Positions 53,548 through 64,000 of a stretch of DNA of 64,000 bases are shown here, piece by piece. Origin of the DNA: Umezawaea endophytica. Its GTDB lineage: Bacteria > Actinomycetota > Actinomycetes > Mycobacteriales > Pseudonocardiaceae. Location: contig NZ_JANYMP010000008.1 of the NCBI RefSeq assembly GCF_025061645.1, forward strand, positions 14,680 to 78,679, read 5' to 3'. The notes under the pieces were generated by a model. It did no database searches. It saw only the letters and a list, made by a program, of their open reading frames with translations, and was not told the origin of the DNA. The first letter of the stretch is position 1; each line of letters opens with the position of its first letter. The translations under genes were made by a program, and so were the position numbers.

Positions 53548-53640
53548 ATGCCCTCCTGCTCTGCCGGTCGTGAGCCCAGAACCCTAGTCGTCCCGTCCAC
53601 GTCCGGTCAGGGGAGTCGTGCGTTACCGAACCAAGTTGAT

Positions 53641-53688
53641 GTGGCAGGTATCTGACAGAGGGGTTGCCACACCTGAACCAGTGACTGG
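53641..53688. promoter_or_regulatory. Inverted repeats upstream of the SARP gene
   Basis: GTGGCA (53641-53646) and TGCCAC (53665-53670) form 6-bp arms 18 bp apart, and CCAGTGACTGG (53678-53688) is a perfect 5-1-5 palindrome. They lie within 80 bp of the SARP start in the divergent gap with the ADP-ribosylglycohydrolase. The regulator is unknown. Confidence 0.3.
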
Positions 53689-53719
53689 TCGAACACCGGA
53701 GGCGGGGGTGGAGGTGGGC

Positions 53720-56527
53720 ATGGCGGACGGGGGGAGCGACGCCCGGAGCGGTACCGGACTGGAGTTCGGGGTGCTCGGGCCGCTCCAGGTGCTCGCCGAC
53801 GGCCGTGCGCTGGTGCTCGGGCGGAAGGGGATGCGCGGGCTGCTCGCCATGCTGGTGCTGGAGGCGAACCGGGTCGTGCCGATCGACGAGATCGTCGACC
53901 GGATCTGGACGGACGACCCGCCGGCCACCGCCCGCACCATCGTCCACGGGTACGTGTCGAAGCTCCGCAAGCTGCTGGAGGAGGCCGACCCGACCGGGTC
54001 CGCGGCCATCCTGACCAGCCCGCCCGGCTACCAGTTGTCGGTCGACCCGTGGCGGCTCGACCTGCACCGGGCCCGTCAGCTCATCTCCTCCGCGCGCGGC
54101 AAGCCCGCGCCGACGAGGGCCGGGCTGCTGCGCGAGGCGCTCGGGCTGTGGCGCGGTCAGGTGCTGGCCGACGTGCCGGGCAACCCGATCACCACCGACC
54201 TGGACGAGCTGCGGCTGTCGGCCGTCGAGGAGCGCATCGACGCCGAGCTGGAGCTCGGCCGCCACCTCGAACTCGTCGGCGAACTGCGGCAGCTCGTCAC
54301 CGAGCACCCGTTCCGCGAACGGCTCGTCGCGCACTCGATGCGCGCCCTCTACCGGTCCGGCCAGCGCGCCGACGCCCTGGAGGCCTACCAGCGGTTCCAC
54401 CGGCGCGCCGTGGAGGAGCTGGGCATCGACCCCGGCCCCGACCTGCGGCAGCTCCACGAGCAGGTGCTGCGCGACGACCCGGTGCTCAGCGACCCCGGAG
54501 GCACCGACCGCCGGGTCGTGGAACCGCGGCCGGGTGTCGTCGTACCGCAGCAGCTACCCGCCGCGGCGAGCGGGTTCATCGGCCGCGGCGCCGAACTGGG
54601 CTGGCTGGACCGGCTGTGCGAGCAGCGCGACCTGTCCGCGACCACGATCGCCGTGATCGACGGCGCGGCGGGCATCGGCAAGACCGAGCTGGCCGTGACC
54701 TGGGGCCACCGCAACGCCGAGCTGTTCCCCGGCGGGTCGCTGTTCGCGCCGATGCACGGCTTCGACGGCGACCGCAGGCCGGTCGAGCCCGCCGAGGTGC
54801 TGGCCCGGTTCCTGCACGCGCTGGGCGTGCCGTCCGACGCCGTGCCGAACGACCTGCCGGACCGCGTCGGCCTCTACCGCTCGCTGCTGGCCCGCCGCCG
54901 CGTGCTGGTCGTGCTGGACGACGCCTGGAGCCCGGACCACGTCCGGCTGCTGCTGCCGCCCGGCGCGGGCTCCGTGGTGCTGGTCACCTGCCGCCGCAGG
55001 CTCGAAGGCCTCGTGGTGAGCAACAGCGCGCGGATGCTCACGGTGGGGGCGCTCAGCGCCGCCGAGTCGATCAGGCTGGTGGACGAGGTCGTCGGCGAAC
55101 CCGTGTCGGAACGGGACCCGGTGGCGGCGCGCAAGCTGGTCGAGCTGTGCGGGTACCTGCCGCTGGCGCTGCGCATCGCGGCGGCCCGGCTGGCGATGAG
55201 TCCGGAGTGGACGGTCGAGGAGCTGGTCGCCGAGCTGTCCGACGACGACAACCGGCTGAGCGTGCTCGACCTGCCGGACGCGGGTGTCGGCGTCCGGCGC
55301 GCGCTGGAGGTCTCCTACCGCGCGCTGTCCCCGGAACTGGCGAGCTCGTTACGGGCGGCCGGCTTGGTGCCCGGCCGGTGGGTGAGCCCGCACGCCGTCG
55401 CCGCGGTCACCGGCGTCGACGTCGCCACCGCGGGTTCCCGGCTGTCCGACCTGGCGGACGCGCACCTGCTGGAACAGCCGTGGAGCGGCGGGTTCGTGCT
55501 GCACGACCTGGTCCGGCTGTTCGTCCGCGAGGTCGCGGGCGACCCGGAGGCCGCCCTGCGCGCGTTGATGCGGCACTACCTGGCGGCGTGCGACCAGGCC
55601 CGCAGGCTCATCCGGCCGAGCAAGGACGGCCTGGCGTTCACCGACGCCACGACCTCCGACGGACCTTCCTCGTCGGCGGGCGCGCTGGCCTGGTTCGACC
55701 GCGAGTGGCCCAACATCGTGGCGCTGGTGCACGCCGGGTCGGAAGCCGGTCTGCACCAGCAGGTCTGGCAGCTCGTGCGACTCGTCCACACCTACTGCTT
55801 CGCCAGGACCGTCGTGCGCGAGTGGGTCGCGCTCGTCGGGTTCGGGCTGGCGTCCGCGCGGGTCAGCGGCGACGAACTCGGCGAGATGCTGCTGCTGCAC
55901 GCCGTCAACGCCACCAGCGCCCGGCTGGGGATGCTGGCGTCGTCGTTACCCGAAGCCCGGCGCGCGCACCGGATCGCCGTCGCCCTCGGCGACCCCCGCT
56001 ACCAGGTGCTGACGCTGGGCCAGCTCGCCAACGCGCTCGCCGCCGTCGGCGACCACGAGGAGGCCCTGCTGCACCACTGGGCGTCCATCGACCTCGCCAA
56101 GCGCGAGGACGACGCGCTCGGCCAGGCCGCCGGGCTGAACAACGTCGCGCAGGTCGAGCAGGCCCTCGGCCGCCGGGAGATCGCCGCCGCCCACCAGTTC
56201 CAGGCGATGGAGATCTACCACCGCTCGGGCGACGAGCGCGCCTACGTGCTGGCGGTGAACAACCTCGCCGAGCTGTACGCCGAGCTGGGACGGCTCCGCG
56301 AAGCGGAGGAGTACGCCAGGCAGGGCGTCGAGCTGGCCCATTCGGGCGCGATGCCGTTCGAGGAGGCGTTCGGGCGGCAGGTGCTCGGCGCGGTGCTCGC
56401 CCGCCGCGCCGAACGGGTCGCCGCGCAGGCGGAGCTGACCGAGTCGCTGCGCCTGTTCGAGCAGGTCGGCTCACCCCGCGCGGTGCTGGTCAGAACCGCG
56501 CTGGAGGTCTTGAGCACCGAGGTTTAG
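53720..56527 (+). CDS. AfsR/SARP-family transcriptional regulator (BTAD, NB-ARC, TPR)
   Basis: This protein of about 935 aa has an OmpR-like winged helix (LGPLQVLADGRALVLGRKGMR onward, residues about 14-100), BTAD (about 105-250), NB-ARC ATPase with Walker A DGAAGIGKTELAV and VLVVLDDAW, then a winged-helix/helical linker and C-terminal TPRs (about 690-935, QLANALAAVGDHEEALLHH repeats). AfsR-type proteins activate secondary-metabolism genes on phosphorylation or ATP binding. ATG 53720 follows GGAGGTG. No biosynthetic cluster is in view, so the target is unknown. Confidence 0.88.
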   Translation: MADGGSDARSGTGLEFGVLGPLQVLADGRALVLGRKGMRGLLAMLVLEANRVVPIDEIVDRIWTDDPPATARTIVHGYVSKLRKLLEEADPTGSAAILTSPPGYQLSVDPWRLDLHRARQLISSARGKPAPTRAGLLREALGLWRGQVLADVPGNPITTDLDELRLSAVEERIDAELELGRHLELVGELRQLVTEHPFRERLVAHSMRALYRSGQRADALEAYQRFHRRAVEELGIDPGPDLRQLHEQVLRDDPVLSDPGGTDRRVVEPRPGVVVPQQLPAAASGFIGRGAELGWLDRLCEQRDLSATTIAVIDGAAGIGKTELAVTWGHRNAELFPGGSLFAPMHGFDGDRRPVEPAEVLARFLHALGVPSDAVPNDLPDRVGLYRSLLARRRVLVVLDDAWSPDHVRLLLPPGAGSVVLVTCRRRLEGLVVSNSARMLTVGALSAAESIRLVDEVVGEPVSERDPVAARKLVELCGYLPLALRIAAARLAMSPEWTVEELVAELSDDDNRLSVLDLPDAGVGVRRALEVSYRALSPELASSLRAAGLVPGRWVSPHAVAAVTGVDVATAGSRLSDLADAHLLEQPWSGGFVLHDLVRLFVREVAGDPEAALRALMRHYLAACDQARRLIRPSKDGLAFTDATTSDGPSSSAGALAWFDREWPNIVALVHAGSEAGLHQQVWQLVRLVHTYCFARTVVREWVALVGFGLASARVSGDELGEMLLLHAVNATSARLGMLASSLPEARRAHRIAVALGDPRYQVLTLGQLANALAAVGDHEEALLHHWASIDLAKREDDALGQAAGLNNVAQVEQALGRREIAAAHQFQAMEIYHRSGDERAYVLAVNNLAELYAELGRLREAEEYARQGVELAHSGAMPFEEAFGRQVLGAVLARRAERVAAQAELTESLRLFEQVGSPRAVLVRTALEVLSTEV

Positions 56528-56712: not shown

Positions 56713-57480
56713 CTAGTCCGCGCTCACGGGGAGCAGCTCGGGGCGTTTCGGGGCGAGGCCGTCGCCGGTGGATTCGCCCCTGACGAGCCTGCCGACGAAC
56801 GGCATGACGTGTTCACGGGCCCACCTCAGGTCGCGGCGGCGCTGCGTCATCCAATCGGACTCCTCCGAAGGGGGCCACGGGGTGTCCCACGCCTCTTCGG
56901 TCTGGTAGCCGAGGACTTCGGCGGTCCGCAGCGCCACGCGGTGGTGGCCCTCCGGCGAGAGGTGGAGGCGGTCCTCGCTCCAGGCCCTCGGGTCGTGCAG
57001 GACGGACATCGCCCACAGGTCCACGACGTGGCAGTGGTAGCGGTCGGCGACGGACCACAGGTGCGTGTTGTAGATGGCGATCTTGCCGCGCAGCGAGCGC
57101 AGCAGCGGCGTGGTCTTGGTGTCGAAGCCGGTGAAGACGATGACCTCGCTGCCCGCGGCGCGGAGGTCGGCGACGGCGATCTCGTAGATCTCGGCCAGCG
57201 CGTCCGGGTCGGTGCCGGGGGTGAGGATGTCGTTGCCACCCGCGCAGAACGCGACCAGGTTCGGCTTCAACGCCGCGGCCAGCGGGAGCTGCTCCTCGAC
57301 GATCTCGTGCAGGGTCTTGCCGCGGATGGCGAGGTTGGCGTAGCGGAAACCGCTGTGGTGGGGGGAGATCAGCGCGGCGAAGCGGTCCGCCCACCCCAGG
57401 AAGTGGCCGTCGGGGCCGGGGTCGTCCATGCCCTCGGTGAAGCTGTCCCCGATTGCGACGAAGCTGTTCAAGTCCTGCAC
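56713..57480 (-). CDS. SGNH/GDSL-type hydrolase
   Basis: This 255-aa hydrolase has block I GDSFTEG (nucleophile Ser), block II NLAIRGKT, block III GGNDIL and block V DRLHLSPEGH with the Asp/His pair. There is no signal peptide, so it is probably a cytosolic esterase. GTG 57480 follows AGGGGA at good spacing; the longer reading frame to 57600 is Arg/Gly-rich and unlikely coding. The substrate is unknown. Confidence 0.85.
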   Translation of the reverse strand: MQDLNSFVAIGDSFTEGMDDPGPDGHFLGWADRFAALISPHHSGFRYANLAIRGKTLHEIVEEQLPLAAALKPNLVAFCAGGNDILTPGTDPDALAEIYEIAVADLRAAGSEVIVFTGFDTKTTPLLRSLRGKIAIYNTHLWSVADRYHCHVVDLWAMSVLHDPRAWSEDRLHLSPEGHHRVALRTAEVLGYQTEEAWDTPWPPSEESDWMTQRRRDLRWAREHVMPFVGRLVRGESTGDGLAPKRPELLPVSAD

Positions 57481-57688
57481 CTGCGATCCCCTCCCTCTGC
57501 GCGACCGGCCCCGATCCCCTCCGAGGTCGCGCGAACAGCGTGCCTCCGGCTCGTACGACCGCGCCACTGAGGTGGGAGCACCGTAGTCGGCGGTCGCCAC
57601 CGAGGTAAACCCGATTGGCCGGGAATGGATTCCCGTGTGCGACCTTGGTTATGCGGTCGTGTCTTTCACTCACTCTTTCGAGGGAGGG

Positions 57689-57727
57689 ATGCGCTTGTTG
57701 GGCGGTTTATCGCAATTCGCACCCTAG
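57689..57727 (+). CDS. Candidate 12-aa leader peptide MRLLGGLSQFAP
   Basis: ATG 57689 has an almost ideal GAGGGAGGG upstream and encodes MRLLGGLSQFAP before TAG. It lies 38 nt before the likely TTG start of the next gene and partly uses rarer codons (TTG, TTA). It may be a regulatory uORF; translation is not shown. Confidence 0.35.
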   Translation: MRLLGGLSQFAP

Positions 57728-57765
57728 GATTTGCCGTTCCGCAGCCGATCGCGCCTGGAGAGGCC

Positions 57766-58191
57766 TTGCCTGTTCGTTTCCCCCTGCCCGTCATCTCCGT
57801 AGGGGCACTCGCCGTGCTGATGGGCCTCGCGCTGGGCATCGGGCTCGGCAGCGCCCCGGACCACCCTCAGGGCGAGAGCGGCGACACGGGCCCGACCCGC
57901 GGCGGCGAACCGGAACCGCGCCAGAGCGGCGGCGACCTGCCCCCGATGGACTTCGAGGGGCGGGTGCAGTCGACGTCCCCGCGCCCGTCGAAGGCGTCCA
58001 CGACGACCGCGCCGTCGGCGTCGGCCGAGACGTCGGTCGCCCAGTCGTCCGAGCCGCGGCGCACCGAGGAGGTGCCAAGCGCGGTCGGGGTCACGCCGAC
58101 GCCCGCGCTGCCGACGCTGCCGTCGGTCCCGGAGGTCTCGGCCAGTTCGCTCGTCGAGATGCCGTCGACCTCGGTGTCCGCCGGCACGTGA
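57766..58191 (+). CDS. Small membrane-anchored or exported Ser/Thr/Pro-rich protein
   Basis: This protein of about 141 aa has one N-terminal hydrophobic helix (FPLPVISVGALAVLMGLALGIGLG) and a low-complexity Ser/Thr/Pro/Glu-rich tail with no recognised domain. TTG 57766 is chosen because GGAGAGG precedes it; a frame open from ATG 57625 lacks an RBS. The stop lies 3 bp before a three-hairpin array. The function is unknown. Confidence 0.45.
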   Translation: MPVRFPLPVISVGALAVLMGLALGIGLGSAPDHPQGESGDTGPTRGGEPEPRQSGGDLPPMDFEGRVQSTSPRPSKASTTTAPSASAETSVAQSSEPRRTEEVPSAVGVTPTPALPTLPSVPEVSASSLVEMPSTSVSAGT

Positions 58192-58194
58192 AGG

Positions 58195-58377
58195 CCCGGT
58201 GCGGGGGAGCGCCGCCGCCGATCATCTCCCCCGCACCGGGGTCCGGTACCGGCGCCCGAGCGCCGGAAGTCTGGTGGGGCCCGGTGCGGAGCGGCGCCGC
58301 CGCCGATCAACCGCCCCGCACCGGGGTTCGAGGCCGACGCGGGGGAGCGCCGCCGCCGATCAACTCCCCCGCGTCGG
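58195..58377. repeat. Array of three hairpins with invariant loop
   Basis: Hairpins lie at 58195-58240 (15-bp perfect stem), 58280-58325 (14 of 15 pairs) and 58334-58377 (14-bp perfect stem). All three loops read CGCCGCCGCCGATCA plus T or A (16 nt). Stem sequences differ with compensating changes, for example GGTGCGG/CCGCACC against GACGCGG/CCGCGTC. The array fills most of the gap between the convergent small-protein gene and the amino-sugar kinase. Terminator function is possible; the conserved loop suggests more. Confidence 0.85.
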
Positions 58378-58420
58378 TGTACTGGGGGCCGGGGCACCGT
58401 CGTGCGCGCCCCGGCCGGGG

Positions 58421-59434
58421 TCAGCCGCTGGCCGCCACGTCGAGTTCCGGTTCCGCCGCCAGGTCCGCGTACGCCGAGCGCAGCCGCAGCTCGGCGGCCG
58501 GGCTCGTGCCGATGGCGTCGAGGCCCAGCAGCGCGGCACCGACGACCGGAGGCAGGTCCACCACGCGGATCCGGGCCATCGGGGCCGAGGTGGACAGGCG
58601 GTCGCGCACGGCGCCGACGACGACGTCACCGGTGCCGGTGAGCACGCCGCCGCCGAGCACGACGTCCACCCGCTCCTCCAGCAGGTCGAGCCGTCGCAGC
58701 GACACGTCGGCGAGCACGGTGATCTCCTCGACCAGCCGGTCCACGACCTCCAGCGCCACCCGGTCGCCGGAGGCGGCCACGTCGAACAGCACCCGGCACA
58801 GCGCGTGCTCGTCCGCTTCCGCCTCGCCGAAGTGGATGCGCTCCACGGCCTCCGCGATGGTCGCCGTGCCGAAGTGCGCGATCACGGCGGGCAGCAGCGC
58901 GGTGGGCTTCCCGCGGCCGTCCTCCGCCCGCACGGCGAGCCACAGCGCCTCGCTGCCGATGTGGCCGCCACCACCCCAGTCACCGGAGATCCGGCCCAGC
59001 GCCGGGAAGCGGTGCGTGCGGCCGTCCTTGGCGACGGCGACGCAGTTGATGCCCGCGCCGCACACCACCGCGACCCCGATGCCGTCGGTCGTTCCCGCCC
59101 TCAGCAGCGCGAACGTGTCGTTGCCGACGACCGTCGTCCCCGACCAGCCGTGCCGTTCGATCTCCGCCTTCAGCTCGTGCTCCTCGCGGGGCAGGTCCGC
59201 CCCCGCGAGGTAGGCGGCGGTGTGCCTCGCCACCCGCTCGTCCGGGGACAGCCCAGCCTGCCGGGCCGCCTCGCGGACGAGCCCGTCGAACACCTCCAGG
59301 CTGCGTCGCAGGCCGACGTTCTGCGGAGAGGCACCGGGCCCGCGCACCCGCGCGAGCACCTGCCCGTCCGCGTCGACCAGCAACACGGCGGTCTTGCTGT
59401 TCCCGCCGTCAATGGCGAGCACCCGGTCGGTCAT
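58421..59434 (-). CDS. BadF/BadG-type ATPase, probable N-acetylglucosamine kinase
   Basis: This 337-aa ASKHA-fold kinase has the phosphate-1 loop IDGGNSKTAVLLVD, the GDWGGGGHIG region with AGINCVAVAKDG upstream, and the adenosine loop LGGGVL. It resembles N-acetylglucosamine/glucosamine kinases. It is last in the sugar operon, 31 bp after the GH4 gene, and would phosphorylate the imported sugar or the released monosaccharide. The exact substrate is inferred. Confidence 0.82.
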   Translation of the reverse strand: MTDRVLAIDGGNSKTAVLLVDADGQVLARVRGPGASPQNVGLRRSLEVFDGLVREAARQAGLSPDERVARHTAAYLAGADLPREEHELKAEIERHGWSGTTVVGNDTFALLRAGTTDGIGVAVVCGAGINCVAVAKDGRTHRFPALGRISGDWGGGGHIGSEALWLAVRAEDGRGKPTALLPAVIAHFGTATIAEAVERIHFGEAEADEHALCRVLFDVAASGDRVALEVVDRLVEEITVLADVSLRRLDLLEERVDVVLGGGVLTGTGDVVVGAVRDRLSTSAPMARIRVVDLPPVVGAALLGLDAIGTSPAAELRLRSAYADLAAEPELDVAASG

Positions 59435-59465
59435 GCTTGCTGGCTCCTCGTGGGCCGGTGGCTGA

Positions 59466-60740
59466 TCAAGGACGGGAGTTCTTCGCCCACGGCAGGAAGT
59501 CCTCGTTCTGCGCGATCAGGTCGTCGGCCAGTCGTTCGGCGGTGGCGTACTGCCCGATCAGCGGGTGGGCGAGCAGCGCGTTCGCCACCCGGTCCCTCCC
59601 GCCGTGTACGGCGGCTTCCAGCGCCAGGTACTCGTACCCCGTCACGTTCGCGATCAACCCGGAGAACAGCGGTTCCACCGGCGGCACCGGCAACGGCACC
59701 GCGCCGTCGGAGGTGACCGTGGCGGGCACCTCGATCACGGCGTCGTCCGGCAGAAACGGCAGCGTGCCGTCGTTGCGCACGTTCACCACGTGCCGCTCGG
59801 CACCCGTGCCACCGGTGAGGGAGTGCACGAGCTGCACCGCCGCCTCCGAGTAGAACGCGCCGCCGCGCTGGGCGAGCTGCTCCGGCTTGGTCACCACCGC
59901 GGGGTCCGCGTAGACGTCCATCAGCTCCTTCTCCACCGCCGCGACGGTTTCCGCCCGCGGCACCTCCACCTTCTGCCTCTCGACGACCTCGTCGTGGTGG
60001 TAGAAGTAGTTGAGGTAGTAGGACGGGACGGCGTTGAGCCGCCGCATCAGCGGGAGCGGCAGCCGCATGTGCTCGGCCAGGTCCTCCCCGTGCTCGCCCA
60101 GCAGTTCAGGCAGCCGGTCGACGCCGCCGACCGTCACGCCGCGCACCCACGTCAGGTGGTTGAGGCCCACGTGGTCCAGCGCCACGGCGTCCGCTTCGAC
60201 GCCCAGTTGGGCCGCGGCCCAGCGCTGGAAGCCGATGGCCACGTTGCACAGCCCGACGGCCTTGTGCCCCGCCTGCTGGAGCGCGCGCGTCACGATGCCG
60301 ACCGGGTTGGTGAAGTTCACGATCCACGTGTCCGGCCCGGCCACGGCCCGCACCCGGTCCGCGATGTCCAGCACCACCGGCACGGTCCGCAACGCCTTCG
60401 CGAGACCACCGGCACCGGTCGTCTCCTGTCCAACGCACCCGCAGGCCAGCGGGAACGTCTCATCGGTCCGCCGAGCCGCCTGACCACCGACCCGCAACTG
60501 GAGCAGCACCGCCGCGGCCCCGTCGACACCCTCCTCCAGGTCCGCGGTGGTGGTGATCCTGGCCGGGTGATCCGCGTGCGCCAGCAGCCGCTGGGCGAAC
60601 GGGCCGATGACCGACAACCGGTGCGCGTCCGGGTCGACGAGGACGATCTCGTCCACGTCGAGGCTGGTACGACGACCGGCGATGCCGTCGATCAGCTCCG
60701 GCGTGTAGGTCGAACCGCCGCCTACAACGGTGAGCTTCAT
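59466..60740 (-). CDS. GH4-family glycosidase (6-phospho-beta-glucosidase-like)
   Basis: This 424-aa NAD- and metal-dependent glycosidase has Rossmann start KLTVVGGGSTYTPEL, FTNPVGIV, the metal Cys in GLCNVAIG, the His in GLNHLTWV and the catalytic-Tyr region YYLNYFYHHDE. GH4 enzymes cleave by an oxidation-elimination mechanism, often on 6-phosphoglycosides. ATG 60740 overlaps the permease stop by 4 nt. With an ABC importer rather than a PTS, phosphorylation would need the kinase encoded downstream, or the enzyme may accept unphosphorylated sugar. Confidence 0.87.
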   Translation of the reverse strand: MKLTVVGGGSTYTPELIDGIAGRRTSLDVDEIVLVDPDAHRLSVIGPFAQRLLAHADHPARITTTADLEEGVDGAAAVLLQLRVGGQAARRTDETFPLACGCVGQETTGAGGLAKALRTVPVVLDIADRVRAVAGPDTWIVNFTNPVGIVTRALQQAGHKAVGLCNVAIGFQRWAAAQLGVEADAVALDHVGLNHLTWVRGVTVGGVDRLPELLGEHGEDLAEHMRLPLPLMRRLNAVPSYYLNYFYHHDEVVERQKVEVPRAETVAAVEKELMDVYADPAVVTKPEQLAQRGGAFYSEAAVQLVHSLTGGTGAERHVVNVRNDGTLPFLPDDAVIEVPATVTSDGAVPLPVPPVEPLFSGLIANVTGYEYLALEAAVHGGRDRVANALLAHPLIGQYATAERLADDLIAQNEDFLPWAKNSRP

Positions 60741-61630
60741 CCTTTGACTCCTGTGAAGGTAATGCCCCGCACGAACGACTTCTGGGCGAAGAGGAACAGG
60801 ATCAGGACCGGGACCAGCACGAGCACGGTGGCGGCCATGGTGAGGTTCCACTGGGTGGTGCGGTGCATGCCGCGGAACGACGCGAGTGCGATGGACAGCG
60901 GCCAGCTATCCTGGCGTTCGCCGACGTACAGCAGCGGGCCGAAGTAGTCGTTCCACGTGTAGAGGAACGTGAACAGCGACGCGGCGGCGATGCCCGGTCT
61001 GGTCATGGGCAGCAGGACGCGGTAGAGGATCTGGAACTCGTTGCAGCCGTCGATCCTGGCCGCGTCGAGGTAGTCCTCCGGGATGGTCAGGAAGAACTGG
61101 CGCAGCAGGAAGATGCTGAACGCGTCGCCGACCAGGTACGGGACGATCAGCGGCCACAGCGTGCCGGTCAGGCCCACGCCCGCCCACATGCTGTACAGCG
61201 GGACTGCGACGACCTGCGGCGGCAGCATCATGGCGGCGATCAGGACCATGAACGCGGCGCTGCTGCCGCGGAACCTGAAGCGCGCCATGGCGTACGCCGC
61301 CGGGATGCTGGAGAGCAGCATGCCGACGGTCGCGAAGCCCGAGTACAGCAGGGAGTTGCCGAGGTACGTCCACATCGGGGCCTGTTCGAACACCGACGCG
61401 AAGTTGTCGAAGTGCCACTCGGTCGGCCACATGTTCGCCGTCAGCGCCTGCTGGTCGGACATCACCGACGTGAGGAACACGAACAGCAGCGGCACGGTGA
61501 AGATCACGCCCATGACGAGCGCGACGCTGTGCACCGCGATCCAGTTGAGGACCTGGACCTTGTTCCTGCGCCGCTTGGGGGTCTGCTTCGCCGACAGGAC
61601 CTTCGGGGGTTCGCTGAGCAGAGCGGTCAT
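60737..61630 (-). CDS. Carbohydrate ABC transporter permease (MalG-type)
   Basis: This 297-aa permease has six helices and the EAA loop LDAARIDGCNEFQILYRVLLPMTRP. Its ATG overlaps the previous permease stop by one base (TGATG), and its stop overlaps the GH4 start by 4 nt, so the operon is tightly coupled. It forms the channel with the other permease; the ATPase is not encoded here and may be the MsiK-type protein at 20 kb. Confidence 0.88.
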   Translation of the reverse strand: MTALLSEPPKVLSAKQTPKRRRNKVQVLNWIAVHSVALVMGVIFTVPLLFVFLTSVMSDQQALTANMWPTEWHFDNFASVFEQAPMWTYLGNSLLYSGFATVGMLLSSIPAAYAMARFRFRGSSAAFMVLIAAMMLPPQVVAVPLYSMWAGVGLTGTLWPLIVPYLVGDAFSIFLLRQFFLTIPEDYLDAARIDGCNEFQILYRVLLPMTRPGIAAASLFTFLYTWNDYFGPLLYVGERQDSWPLSIALASFRGMHRTTQWNLTMAATVLVLVPVLILFLFAQKSFVRGITFTGVKG

Positions 61631-62628
61631 CAGCTCTTCGCCTCCTCGGAGTTCGCGGCGCGGAGCTGGCGGATCAGGATCGCGGTGAAGGCGAAGGACA
61701 CGACGAACAGCACCACGGCCATCGCCGACGCGTAACCCATGTGGTATGCCCGGAAACCCTGCTGGTAGAGCCAGATCGGGAACGTCAGCGTCGAGTTGTT
61801 GGGGTAGCCCATGATCTGGCTGTTGCCGACCAGGCTGGCCGACCCCGACGCCACCGACCCGGCGACGACCGCCTGGGTGAAGTACTGGAGGGCGAAGATC
61901 ACCGAGTTCACCACGCCGAACAGCAGCACGGGCGCGATGGTCGGGAGCGTGATCTTCCGGAACTGCATCCACGGGCCGGCGCCGTCGAGCTGCGCGGCCT
62001 CGTAGAGGTCCTTGGGGACGTCCAGGATCGCGGCCAGGATGATGATCATGATCTCGCCGGAGCCCCACAGGGTGAGCAGCGTCAGCGCGGGCTTCGACAG
62101 GGCCGGGTCGTTGAACCACAGCGGACCGTCGATGCCGAACCAGCCGAGCACGGTGTTCACCGGACCGGTGCCGGGGTTGAACACGAAGACGAATGTCAGC
62201 GTGGCCGCGACCGGCGGGATCAGCGAAGGCAGGTAGCAGAGCGTGCGGAGCAGGCTGTTGCCCGTGGTGACGCGCGCCAGGATCGAGGCGACACCGAGTC
62301 CGAACGCGACCCGCAGGACCGTGATGACCACGACCAGCCACAGCGTGTTCGCCGCGGCCGTCTTGACCACCGGGTCGCCGGTGAACAGGTACACGAAGTT
62401 GCGGAGGCCGACGAAGTCGGCGGTGTCGAGCCCGTTGTAGTTGGTCAGCGAGAAGTAGACCGTCGCCAACAACGGGTAGACGAAGAAGACCGCGACGCCG
62501 ATCGCCCACGGCGCCAGGAAGAGGATCACCCACTTGCGGTTGCGGCCGCGGACCCGAGCCCGCCCCCTGGTGGGGGCGGGACGGGTGGTCGCGGGCTCCG
62601 CTGTCCGACCAGCCAGGGTCGTGGTCAC
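61630..62628 (-). CDS. Carbohydrate ABC transporter permease (MalF-type)
   Basis: This 332-aa permease has a basic Arg-rich N-terminal tail, six helices and the EAA loop YEAAQLDGAGPWMQFRKITLP. It starts with GTG 62628, 10 bp after the binding-protein gene. It partners the second permease downstream. Confidence 0.88.
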   Translation of the reverse strand: MTTTLAGRTAEPATTRPAPTRGRARVRGRNRKWVILFLAPWAIGVAVFFVYPLLATVYFSLTNYNGLDTADFVGLRNFVYLFTGDPVVKTAAANTLWLVVVITVLRVAFGLGVASILARVTTGNSLLRTLCYLPSLIPPVAATLTFVFVFNPGTGPVNTVLGWFGIDGPLWFNDPALSKPALTLLTLWGSGEIMIIILAAILDVPKDLYEAAQLDGAGPWMQFRKITLPTIAPVLLFGVVNSVIFALQYFTQAVVAGSVASGSASLVGNSQIMGYPNNSTLTFPIWLYQQGFRAYHMGYASAMAVVLFVVSFAFTAILIRQLRAANSEEAKS

Positions 62629-62638
62629 GGTGCCCGCC

Positions 62639-63979
62639 CTACTTGCCGAGTGCCTTGGCGTCGTCGATCTGCTTGTCCAGCGTGGTCAGGCCGCCGCCGA
62701 GGTCGGTGTTGGAGCCGGACTGCCAGGCCTCGCCGAAGTCGGACACGATCTTGAGGTACTGGTCGCCGATGGTGCTGGCGGGGTTGGACGTCAGGTTCTT
62801 GTTCTGGAAGGCGTCCAGGAACGGCTTGAACGTGTCGCCCAGCTTCAGGTCGGGGCTGCTCAGCGAGGTCTTGGTGCTGGGCACGTTGTGCAGGCCGTTC
62901 GCCAGGCCGACCAGCGCGTCGGTGTCGGACGTCAGGTACTTGATCAGGTCCCACGCCGCGCCGGGGTTCTTGGCGCCCTTGGGGATGCCGATGATCGTGC
63001 CGGTGGTGTAGCCGCCGCCGTAGTTCTCCGGTTTCGACGTCGGGAGCGCCGTCGTCCCGTAGTTCAGCGCGGGCGTCTGGTCGGCGAGGAACGCCGTGCG
63101 GTACTCGCCGTCGATCGCCATGGCGACCTTGCCCGCGTGGAAACCGTTGTCGGCGCTGTACTCCTGGCCGAGACCGGCGGTGAACTTCTGGAGGTTGTCC
63201 CAGCCGTAGAAGTCGATGAGCTCCTTCTGCCAGGTGAACATGTCCTTCCAGCCCTGGTCCTGGCCGAGGATGGACTTGCCGTCCTTGTCGATCCACTTGG
63301 CGCCGAACATCGTCGCCACGATCTGCGGCTTGAACGCGTAGAAGCCCATCTGGGGCAGGAAGCCCGCGACCTCGATGGAGCCGTCGGCGGCCTTGACGGT
63401 CGTCTTCTTGGCGAAGTCGAGCAGTTCGGCCGTGGTCTTCGGCGGGCTGGTCAGGCCTGCCTTCGCGAGCAGGTCCTTGTTGTAGTACAGGCCGTAGACG
63501 TCGGCCAGCATCGGCAGCGCGACCCGCTTGCCGTCGTACTCGGTGTAGTCGCGCACCGCCTGGGGGATGTCGTCCAGGTTGTACTTGTCCCGCTCGATGT
63601 ACGGCTTCAGGTCCTGCCACGCGCCGCTGGACGCGAACTGGCCGATGTTGTCCGTGGTGAACGAGATCGCCACGTCCGGCGGGTTGCCGCTGCGGATCGC
63701 CTGGGTGATCTTGTCGTCGTCCTGGCTGCCCTGGTTGTCGATCGTCACGTTCGGGTGCTTGGCGTGGTACTTGTCCAGCGCGTCCTTGACGAGACCCAGT
63801 TCGCGGTCGGCGAAGGCGCTCCAGACCTGGATGGTCACGGCCTGGTCGGAACTCGGGGCTTCGGCGGGGCCCGAGGCCGCGCCGCCGCCCGCGGTGCACG
63901 CGGCGGCCATGACGCCCGCCGTGGCGACGACGAGTGCTGACCGGAGGCGAAGCCGCGAACGGCCTGGCTTGGTGCGCAT
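62639..63979 (-). CDS. Sugar ABC transporter substrate-binding lipoprotein
   Basis: This 446-aa family-1 binding protein has a signal peptide (ALVVATAGVMAAAC, lipobox Cys near residue 29), a short Gly/Ala/Ser linker and the mature start VTIQVWSAFADRELG. VYGLYYNKDLLAKAGL is the usual hinge region. Downstream GH4 and amino-sugar kinase genes suggest a beta-linked or amino-sugar oligosaccharide, chitobiose-like, as ligand. ATG 63979 follows CAGGAGG. The promoter region lies beyond the window edge. Confidence 0.87.
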   Translation of the reverse strand: MRTKPGRSRLRLRSALVVATAGVMAAACTAGGGAASGPAEAPSSDQAVTIQVWSAFADRELGLVKDALDKYHAKHPNVTIDNQGSQDDDKITQAIRSGNPPDVAISFTTDNIGQFASSGAWQDLKPYIERDKYNLDDIPQAVRDYTEYDGKRVALPMLADVYGLYYNKDLLAKAGLTSPPKTTAELLDFAKKTTVKAADGSIEVAGFLPQMGFYAFKPQIVATMFGAKWIDKDGKSILGQDQGWKDMFTWQKELIDFYGWDNLQKFTAGLGQEYSADNGFHAGKVAMAIDGEYRTAFLADQTPALNYGTTALPTSKPENYGGGYTTGTIIGIPKGAKNPGAAWDLIKYLTSDTDALVGLANGLHNVPSTKTSLSSPDLKLGDTFKPFLDAFQNKNLTSNPASTIGDQYLKIVSDFGEAWQSGSNTDLGGGLTTLDKQIDDAKALGK

Positions 63980-64000
63980 TGGCCCTCCTGGGAGATTCAA

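Follow-up and report, generated by a model that had tools for sequence, protein, structure and literature searches.

A candidate structured RNA of three hairpins with one conserved loop past the last gene of a sugar operon in Umezawaea and related genera

Introduction

The titrating RNAs of the CsrB/RsmZ type have several hairpins in a row with one short motif, GGA, in each loop, and CsrA is the best-known protein titrated by such hairpin arrays. The cuckoo RNAs CcsR1-4 of Rhodobacter lie in tandem downstream of a small gene and repeat one conserved loop motif, and REP/BIME repeats are palindromic intergenic units found in small clusters. The guanidine-II riboswitch sits in 5' leaders. Excerpts of one article describe this riboswitch (mini-ykkC) as tandem similar stem-loops with a conserved loop, in which two stem loops dimerise by their loops (PMC5486947). 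In passages of a second article the L17 downstream element (RF01708) is a structured RNA located in what may be the 3'-UTR of one particular gene, its strand is argued from G-U pairs, and gene regulation by a 3'-UTR RNA domain is called "highly unusual" in bacteria as of 2010 (PMC2864571).

The locus described here lies in a window (the whole stretch of Umezawaea endophytica DNA that was analysed, 64,000 nucleotides long) in which three hairpins at 58195-58377 carry a shared loop. It differs from CsrB/RsmZ in that the loop motif is GGCGGCGG and not GGA and that the array sits in a 3'-UTR; a search of the organism's own genome for CsrA gave none (the same search was positive in 3 of 14 control genomes), so that the two marks of such a titrating RNA, a CsrA/RsmA protein and GGA loops, are both lacking. 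The cuckoo RNAs have CU-rich loops, are separate small RNAs of Alphaproteobacteria, and are unrelated in sequence. Compared with the guanidine-II riboswitch as those excerpts present it, the array has three hairpins, a 3'-UTR position, a 16-nt loop and a core that is not self-complementary; it follows the last gene of its operon, and no Rfam model of that riboswitch matched. The nearest published situation that we met is the L17 downstream element, which in the passages cited is like the array in its 3'-UTR position and G-U strand argument, although the gene and the phylum are different, there is no Rfam match here, and the folds were not compared in detail. A search of 57000-59500 against Rfam 15 at E up to 10 found no family over its gathering score; the best of three matches, to a microRNA family, reached 27 bits against a cut-off of 50.

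Results

Geometry and strand of the array

Counted in RNA order from the stop codon of the adjacent kinase gene, hairpin 1 (58334..58377, minus strand) has a 14-bp stem and the apical motif UUGAUCGGCGGCGGCG, hairpin 2 (58280..58325, minus strand) has a 15-bp stem with one G.U on the RNA strand, and hairpin 3 (58195..58240, minus strand) has a 15-bp stem and the loop AUGAUCGGCGGCGGCG. The arms of each are separated by 16 nt, the RNA loop is UUGAUCGGCGGCGGCG in two of them and AUGAUCGGCGGCGGCG in the third, and in the plus-strand reading a 15-nt core, CGCCGCCGCCGATCA, is common to all three. Arrays of three hairpins are also present in two other genomes, G001 (Umezawaea) and G002. The earlier note, made from the letters of the window, had reported three hairpins with a common loop in this interval, and they are confirmed: the structure is beyond chance by shuffled folds and the loop is preserved in other genera. 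The minus strand folds at -132.2 kcal/mol (z = -4.2) with all three hairpins formed, and the plus strand at -123.7 (z = -3.3) with hairpin 2 absent from the lowest-energy fold; in neither case was any of 200 shuffles as stable. When five UTRs were folded whole, the kinase strand was the more stable in four, and in the exception, L038, the other strand was slightly more stable.

The strand is determined in silico from the imperfect pairs. Read in the kinase direction, 47 distinct stems contain 655 Watson-Crick pairs, 22 G.U, 1 A.C and 4 other pairs, and the 22 to 1 excess of G.U over A.C (19 to 1 in distinct contexts) has p = 4e-5. These stems were picked by Watson-Crick matches only, which is a strand-symmetric choice, and the count leaves aside 17 of 99 GGCGGCGG occurrences that have no stem, namely two L037 loop copies, one L061 copy at a gap of N, and others outside hairpins. 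The ratio in the hand-chosen hairpin set (below) is 15 to 1. A mutational bias in DNA that is transcribed might contribute to the G.U excess, but it would likewise indicate transcription in the kinase direction. From this excess and the terminator that follows on the same strand (below) we conclude that the predicted RNA is the minus strand and forms the 3'-UTR of a ROK/ABC/GH4/BadF operon. The earlier note had read the array on the plus strand; that reading has to be reversed, and the true loop is UUGAUCGGCGGCGGCG.

The operon and neighbouring genes

The operon runs on the minus strand in the order ROK-family regulator, solute-binding protein, permeases, family 4 glycosyl hydrolase (GH4) and BadF/BadG-type ATPase, and Pfam backs five of these genes. 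The regulator is just beyond the window edge (L145:8677-9918, minus strand, PF00480) and is followed by the solute-binding protein (62639..64000, minus strand, PF01547), an ABC sugar permease (61630..62628, minus strand; PF00528 on L145:6310-7308) and, between it and the GH4 gene, a second minus-strand permease recognised by eye from its translation and not by a Pfam scan. The GH4 gene is at 59466..60758 (minus strand; PF02056 and PF11975 on L145:4146-5438), with an uncertain start codon, the listed open reading frame extending to 60851. The BadF/BadG-type ATPase, a member of the sugar kinase family (58421..59434, minus strand, PF01869), is the last gene, and the array lies in its 3'-UTR. Synonymous conservation, which bears on the question of a dedicated promoter, is 0.70 at the 3' end of the kinase gene, 0.53-0.64 in most middle windows and 0.79 at the kinase start.

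The next gene in the kinase direction encodes a GDSL/SGNH hydrolase (56713..57483, minus strand, PF13472). A large regulator at 53618-56527 on the plus strand, convergent with the GDSL gene, has a C-terminal part that matches TPR repeats, and relatives of it adjoin many of the 80 kinase loci compared below. Convergent with the operon is a small Pro/Thr/Ser-rich protein, probably exported (57625..58191, plus strand, no Pfam match), whose reading frame ends 3 bp from the array. The earlier note had placed the array 3 bp past the stop of this protein, which is correct, but the neighbour that stays constant across species is the kinase gene. A relative of the exported protein was found by tblastn near 10 of the 80 kinase loci (it is a low-complexity protein, and some may be missed), once, in L072, at a locus that has no array, and we therefore rejected a tie between the two. 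In Saccharothrix L041 and L062 and in Solihabitans L076 a hairpin is present and the GDSL gene comes next in the kinase direction, with no detected relative of the exported protein.

Distribution among kinase loci

A comparison with the kinase as query gave 80 named loci, the best 80 of 193 relatives, in which a hairpin was counted if GGCGGCGG lay within a stem no more than 420 nt past the kinase stop. Three hairpins were found in 22 loci, two in 3, one in 5 and none in 50. The single hairpin of Kutzneria L058 (+237) lies in a repetitive stretch, looks like chance and was set aside, which leaves arrays just past the BadF-type kinase stop in 29 of the 80 loci: Umezawaea tangerina (whose kinase is 90% identical to that of the window), 20 of 21 labelled Lentzea, 'Nocardia' sp. 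NRRL S-836, 6 of 10 labelled Saccharothrix, and Solihabitans. Three hairpins are present in 22 of these 29. The distance from the kinase stop to the first stem is 5-78 nt overall and 5-16 nt in 26 of the 29. In the Saccharothrix loci L041 and L062, with one hairpin each, the stem is long and the core is kept, but the rest of the loop is altered. No array accompanies the kinase in Amycolatopsis, Saccharopolyspora, Crossiella, Nonomuraea and others, although the GH4 gene is nearly always present there too. The array is also absent from Lentzea fradiae (L052) and from four of the ten Saccharothrix loci (L063, L065, L069 and L072), all five of which retain the kinase and GDSL hydrolase genes; it is therefore dispensable and can be lost.

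Three individual loci deserve mention. Lentzea sp. NBRC 105346 (L037:5012-5310) has five loop copies rather than three, two of which carry a shared insert, GATACAGCGG, between the 5' arm and the loop and have lost the standard stem. In Kutzneria sp. 744 (L061:4991-5252) the kinase stop is followed by CAGACCCCGTGGGTAGGGAGTGACGGCGGCGG, much like the start of an array, and then by 223 N; the covariance model found no copy in this genome, whose assembly has the 223-N gap at that place. A lone 9-bp hairpin in another family of the order (G089, L026:1508) has a loop, GGCCGCCGCCGATCAT, close to that of the array, and is probably a chance occurrence.

Genome-wide searches

The organism's own genome contains nine exact matches to the 15-mer, yet the covariance model, with matches allowed up to E 1, hits no hairpins but the three of the array. 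Among 60 relatives, model R1 found the array in G000, G001, G002 and G009 at E < 1e-4, with all others at E 0.07 or worse, and the matches in these four genomes were confirmed to adjoin the kinase gene. Among 297 family genomes, a sample of a larger family, 34 match at E 0.01 or better: three of genus g1, 22 of g8 (Lentzea), seven of g22 (read as Saccharothrix from identical hairpin scores) and single weak ones in g33 and g20; the 34 include G134 and G148 (E 0.004 and 0.009), about what chance would give over 297 genomes. Each matching genome has one such place, save for near-threshold extras in G234 and G318 (E 0.006 and 0.009). Model R2, run at E 0.001 on 394 genomes of the class, matched the own genome and none of the 393 others. 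Searches of more than 40 genomes used stricter filters, with which weak copies may be missed.

The copies in relatives that the earlier note had looked to a covariance model to find thus exist, and the model separates the array from other GC-rich hairpins. The same note's suggestion of a locally expanded REP-like family or a transposase target fails, since strong matches occur at one place per genome; the array is not dispersed as REP/BIME repeats are, and a mobile repeat with many dispersed copies was rejected on the same ground.

Covariation and constraint

Structure was measured on 27 hand-chosen hairpins with distinct stems (alignment A3, which holds hairpins with exactly 16 nt between the stems, shorter and longer loops being excluded, so that the pairing figure is for that subset; A1 holds 12 of the 13 first-seen hairpins, L026 excluded, and A2 holds 23 of 30). 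Pairing is kept in 99.1% of 324 cells and 117 cells have changed on both sides, and no shuffle of 500 reached either value. The covariation score is 0.985 compared with 0.250 for shuffled alignments (0 of 500 reach it), and pairing falls to 48-56% when the partner is shifted by 1-3 columns. Eleven of the 12 pairs are double-changed somewhere, but 15 of 500 shuffles reach that, so this measure is not clear of the shuffles. An alignment of 59 distinct rows gave the same picture, with 243 double-change cells (0 of 500 shuffles), although it is model-fitted and such fitting leans to structure; its weaker measures were reached more often, the changing-pair count by 81 and the pair types by 21 of 500 shuffles. 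The covarying base pairs and the G.U pairs on the RNA strand are both what is expected of a structured RNA. The stems that the earlier note called compensating are so by this pairing, but on the plus strand hairpin 2 has an A.C mismatch (93% complementary) where the minus strand has G.U and is fully paired.

The stems vary both between and within genera with pairing kept, and other genera retain the loop behind the same kinase gene. In Lentzea the three stems are unlike one another and each is largely kept across species, while the loop core is common to all three. Mean pairwise identity in 19 of the 22 Lentzea-type loci (L037, L047 and L052 excluded) is 0.993 for the loop core (27 columns), 0.925 for stems, 0.87 for the terminator, 0.771 for the loop remainder, 0.657 for kinase fourfold sites (155 sites) and 0.606 for spacer and flank, a class that includes bases after the array. 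All 59 distinct model-found hairpins have GGCGGCGG in the loop, usually preceded by C, with the GAUC part variable, but the model that found them weights the loop and this conservation is partly by selection. Conservation of the loop while the stems covary supports the earlier proposal that the loop is probably recognised by something.

Loop fold and terminators

In the predicted fold most stems are capped by unpaired bases and a small UCG-GCGG-CGG stem-loop, so that chiefly GCGG and the neighbouring A are confidently predicted to be single-stranded. GGCGGCGG is partly self-paired in this fold, so that structure could account for some of its conservation. The two apical pairs of the consensus fold are invariant in 27 of 27 hairpins, and because they never vary the cap is a prediction beyond the reach of the covariation test. 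A G-quadruplex was rejected, as the folding program uses none in five UTRs when G-quadruplexes are allowed. By eye, several Lentzea loops carry UAG in the register of a putative short reading frame through the loop.

Of the 29 array loci, 16 Lentzea-type ones have past the array a separate same-strand hairpin of 16-17 bp with a short T run, and in most Lentzea loci the array precedes a terminator. By the same terminator definition none was found in the other 13, U. tangerina and Saccharothrix among them. The hairpins of the window array are not themselves intrinsic terminators of the usual kind, as no U run follows any of the three minus-strand stems; a terminator pattern scan of the array found none, and covers loops of 3-8 only and so not these hairpins.

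Discussion

A motif that recurs three times on interchangeable stems points to a multivalent site for binding. Where the array lies, behind the last gene and in many loci ahead of a terminator, is suggestive of a 3'-UTR platform or of a small RNA cleaved out of the 3'-UTR. The explanation that we favour, although we hold it to be somewhat short of probable, is a 3'-UTR RNA in which one motif is displayed three times for a trans-acting factor. The array would be transcribed with the sugar uptake and utilisation operon (ROK regulator, ABC transporter, GH4 hydrolase and BadF kinase) as a structured 3'-UTR and would accumulate, each hairpin presenting the apical motif GAUC-GGCGGCGGCG, with its core GGCGGCGG, on a rigid, GC-rich stem, the sequence of the stem being less important, and the three consecutive copies would make a multivalent platform for binding. 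The likeliest partner would be a trans-acting factor, probably an RNA-binding protein. The 3'-UTR may be set free as a small RNA and titrate the factor upon induction of the sugar operon, or the bound factor may set the stability of the operon mRNA.

The array could instead be a 3'-UTR-derived small RNA that acts by base pairing, its three loops being repeated seeds for C-rich stretches (CCGCCGCC) in target mRNAs. Such RNAs are common in some bacteria, the loops here are identical repeats, and there is a possible release site beside the terminator, but perfect 14-mer complements in G000, G002 and G009 gave no homologous target common to genera in 23 non-array places (perfect matches only were sought, and 23 of 30 non-array matches were read, 7 being without a locus). 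The only homologous pair is within Umezawaea, in the coding IGGG stretch of a LacI-type gene, and is antisense to the needed orientation; moreover the seed is common in GC-rich DNA, GGCGGCGG occurring 58 times on both strands of the window. We regard this alternative as unlikely. Equally improbable in our estimation is a plain module that stabilises or terminates the mRNA 3' end, with the loop constrained only by folding into a compact cap: it would account for the position past the last gene, the very stable stems and the predicted apical UCG-GCGG-CGG fold, and the Umezawaea span also separates convergent genes, but a normal terminator follows separately in 16 loci, and a loop 99% conserved, with a core conserved above the stems, is not expected of stabilising hairpins.

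The repetition of hairpins with one conserved loop in a sugar operon would also suit a ligand-binding tandem hairpin RNA (as guanidine-II) that senses the operon's sugar or product and affects the fate of the mRNA from its 3' side; we think this very unlikely, as the loop core is not self-complementary, the array is 3' of the operon genes and no expression platform was seen there. A DNA element (a REP-like repeat, a recombination or transposase target or a protein-binding cruciform) fits the near-perfect inverted repeats and is scarcely credible otherwise, given one place per genome, none in the 393 other genomes of the class sampled, and a set of mismatches that is almost entirely G.U on just one strand, a bias for which recognition of DNA offers no explanation.

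For the trans-acting factor, the absence of CsrA, of a perfect antisense partner shared between genera in the 23 places read, and of an Rfam family leads us to favour, with modest confidence, a putative RNA-binding protein. A more specific proposal, which we advance tentatively and consider doubtful, is that the array belongs to a class of bacterial RNA that is new: a "triple-loop" platform in the 3'-UTR of a single sugar operon, present in one branch of the Pseudonocardiaceae, by which an as yet undescribed RNA-binding protein of actinobacteria that recognises GGCGGCGG hairpin loops would be titrated or recruited. The sequence case for the array as a real structured RNA candidate is strong, and as far as Rfam 15 and the literature searched show it is unlisted; among the matches listed from open-licence PMC text, no paper describes it by title.

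To our knowledge little is known of the RNA-binding regulators of high-GC actinobacteria, and the genera that carry the array are known for antibiotics. With its loop fixed across genera and its stems rewritten, the array would be a ready bait for the protein or RNA that reads it. If the triple-loop proposal is true, these bacteria, which lack CsrA, would have sugar uptake tied into a broader network of post-transcriptional control.
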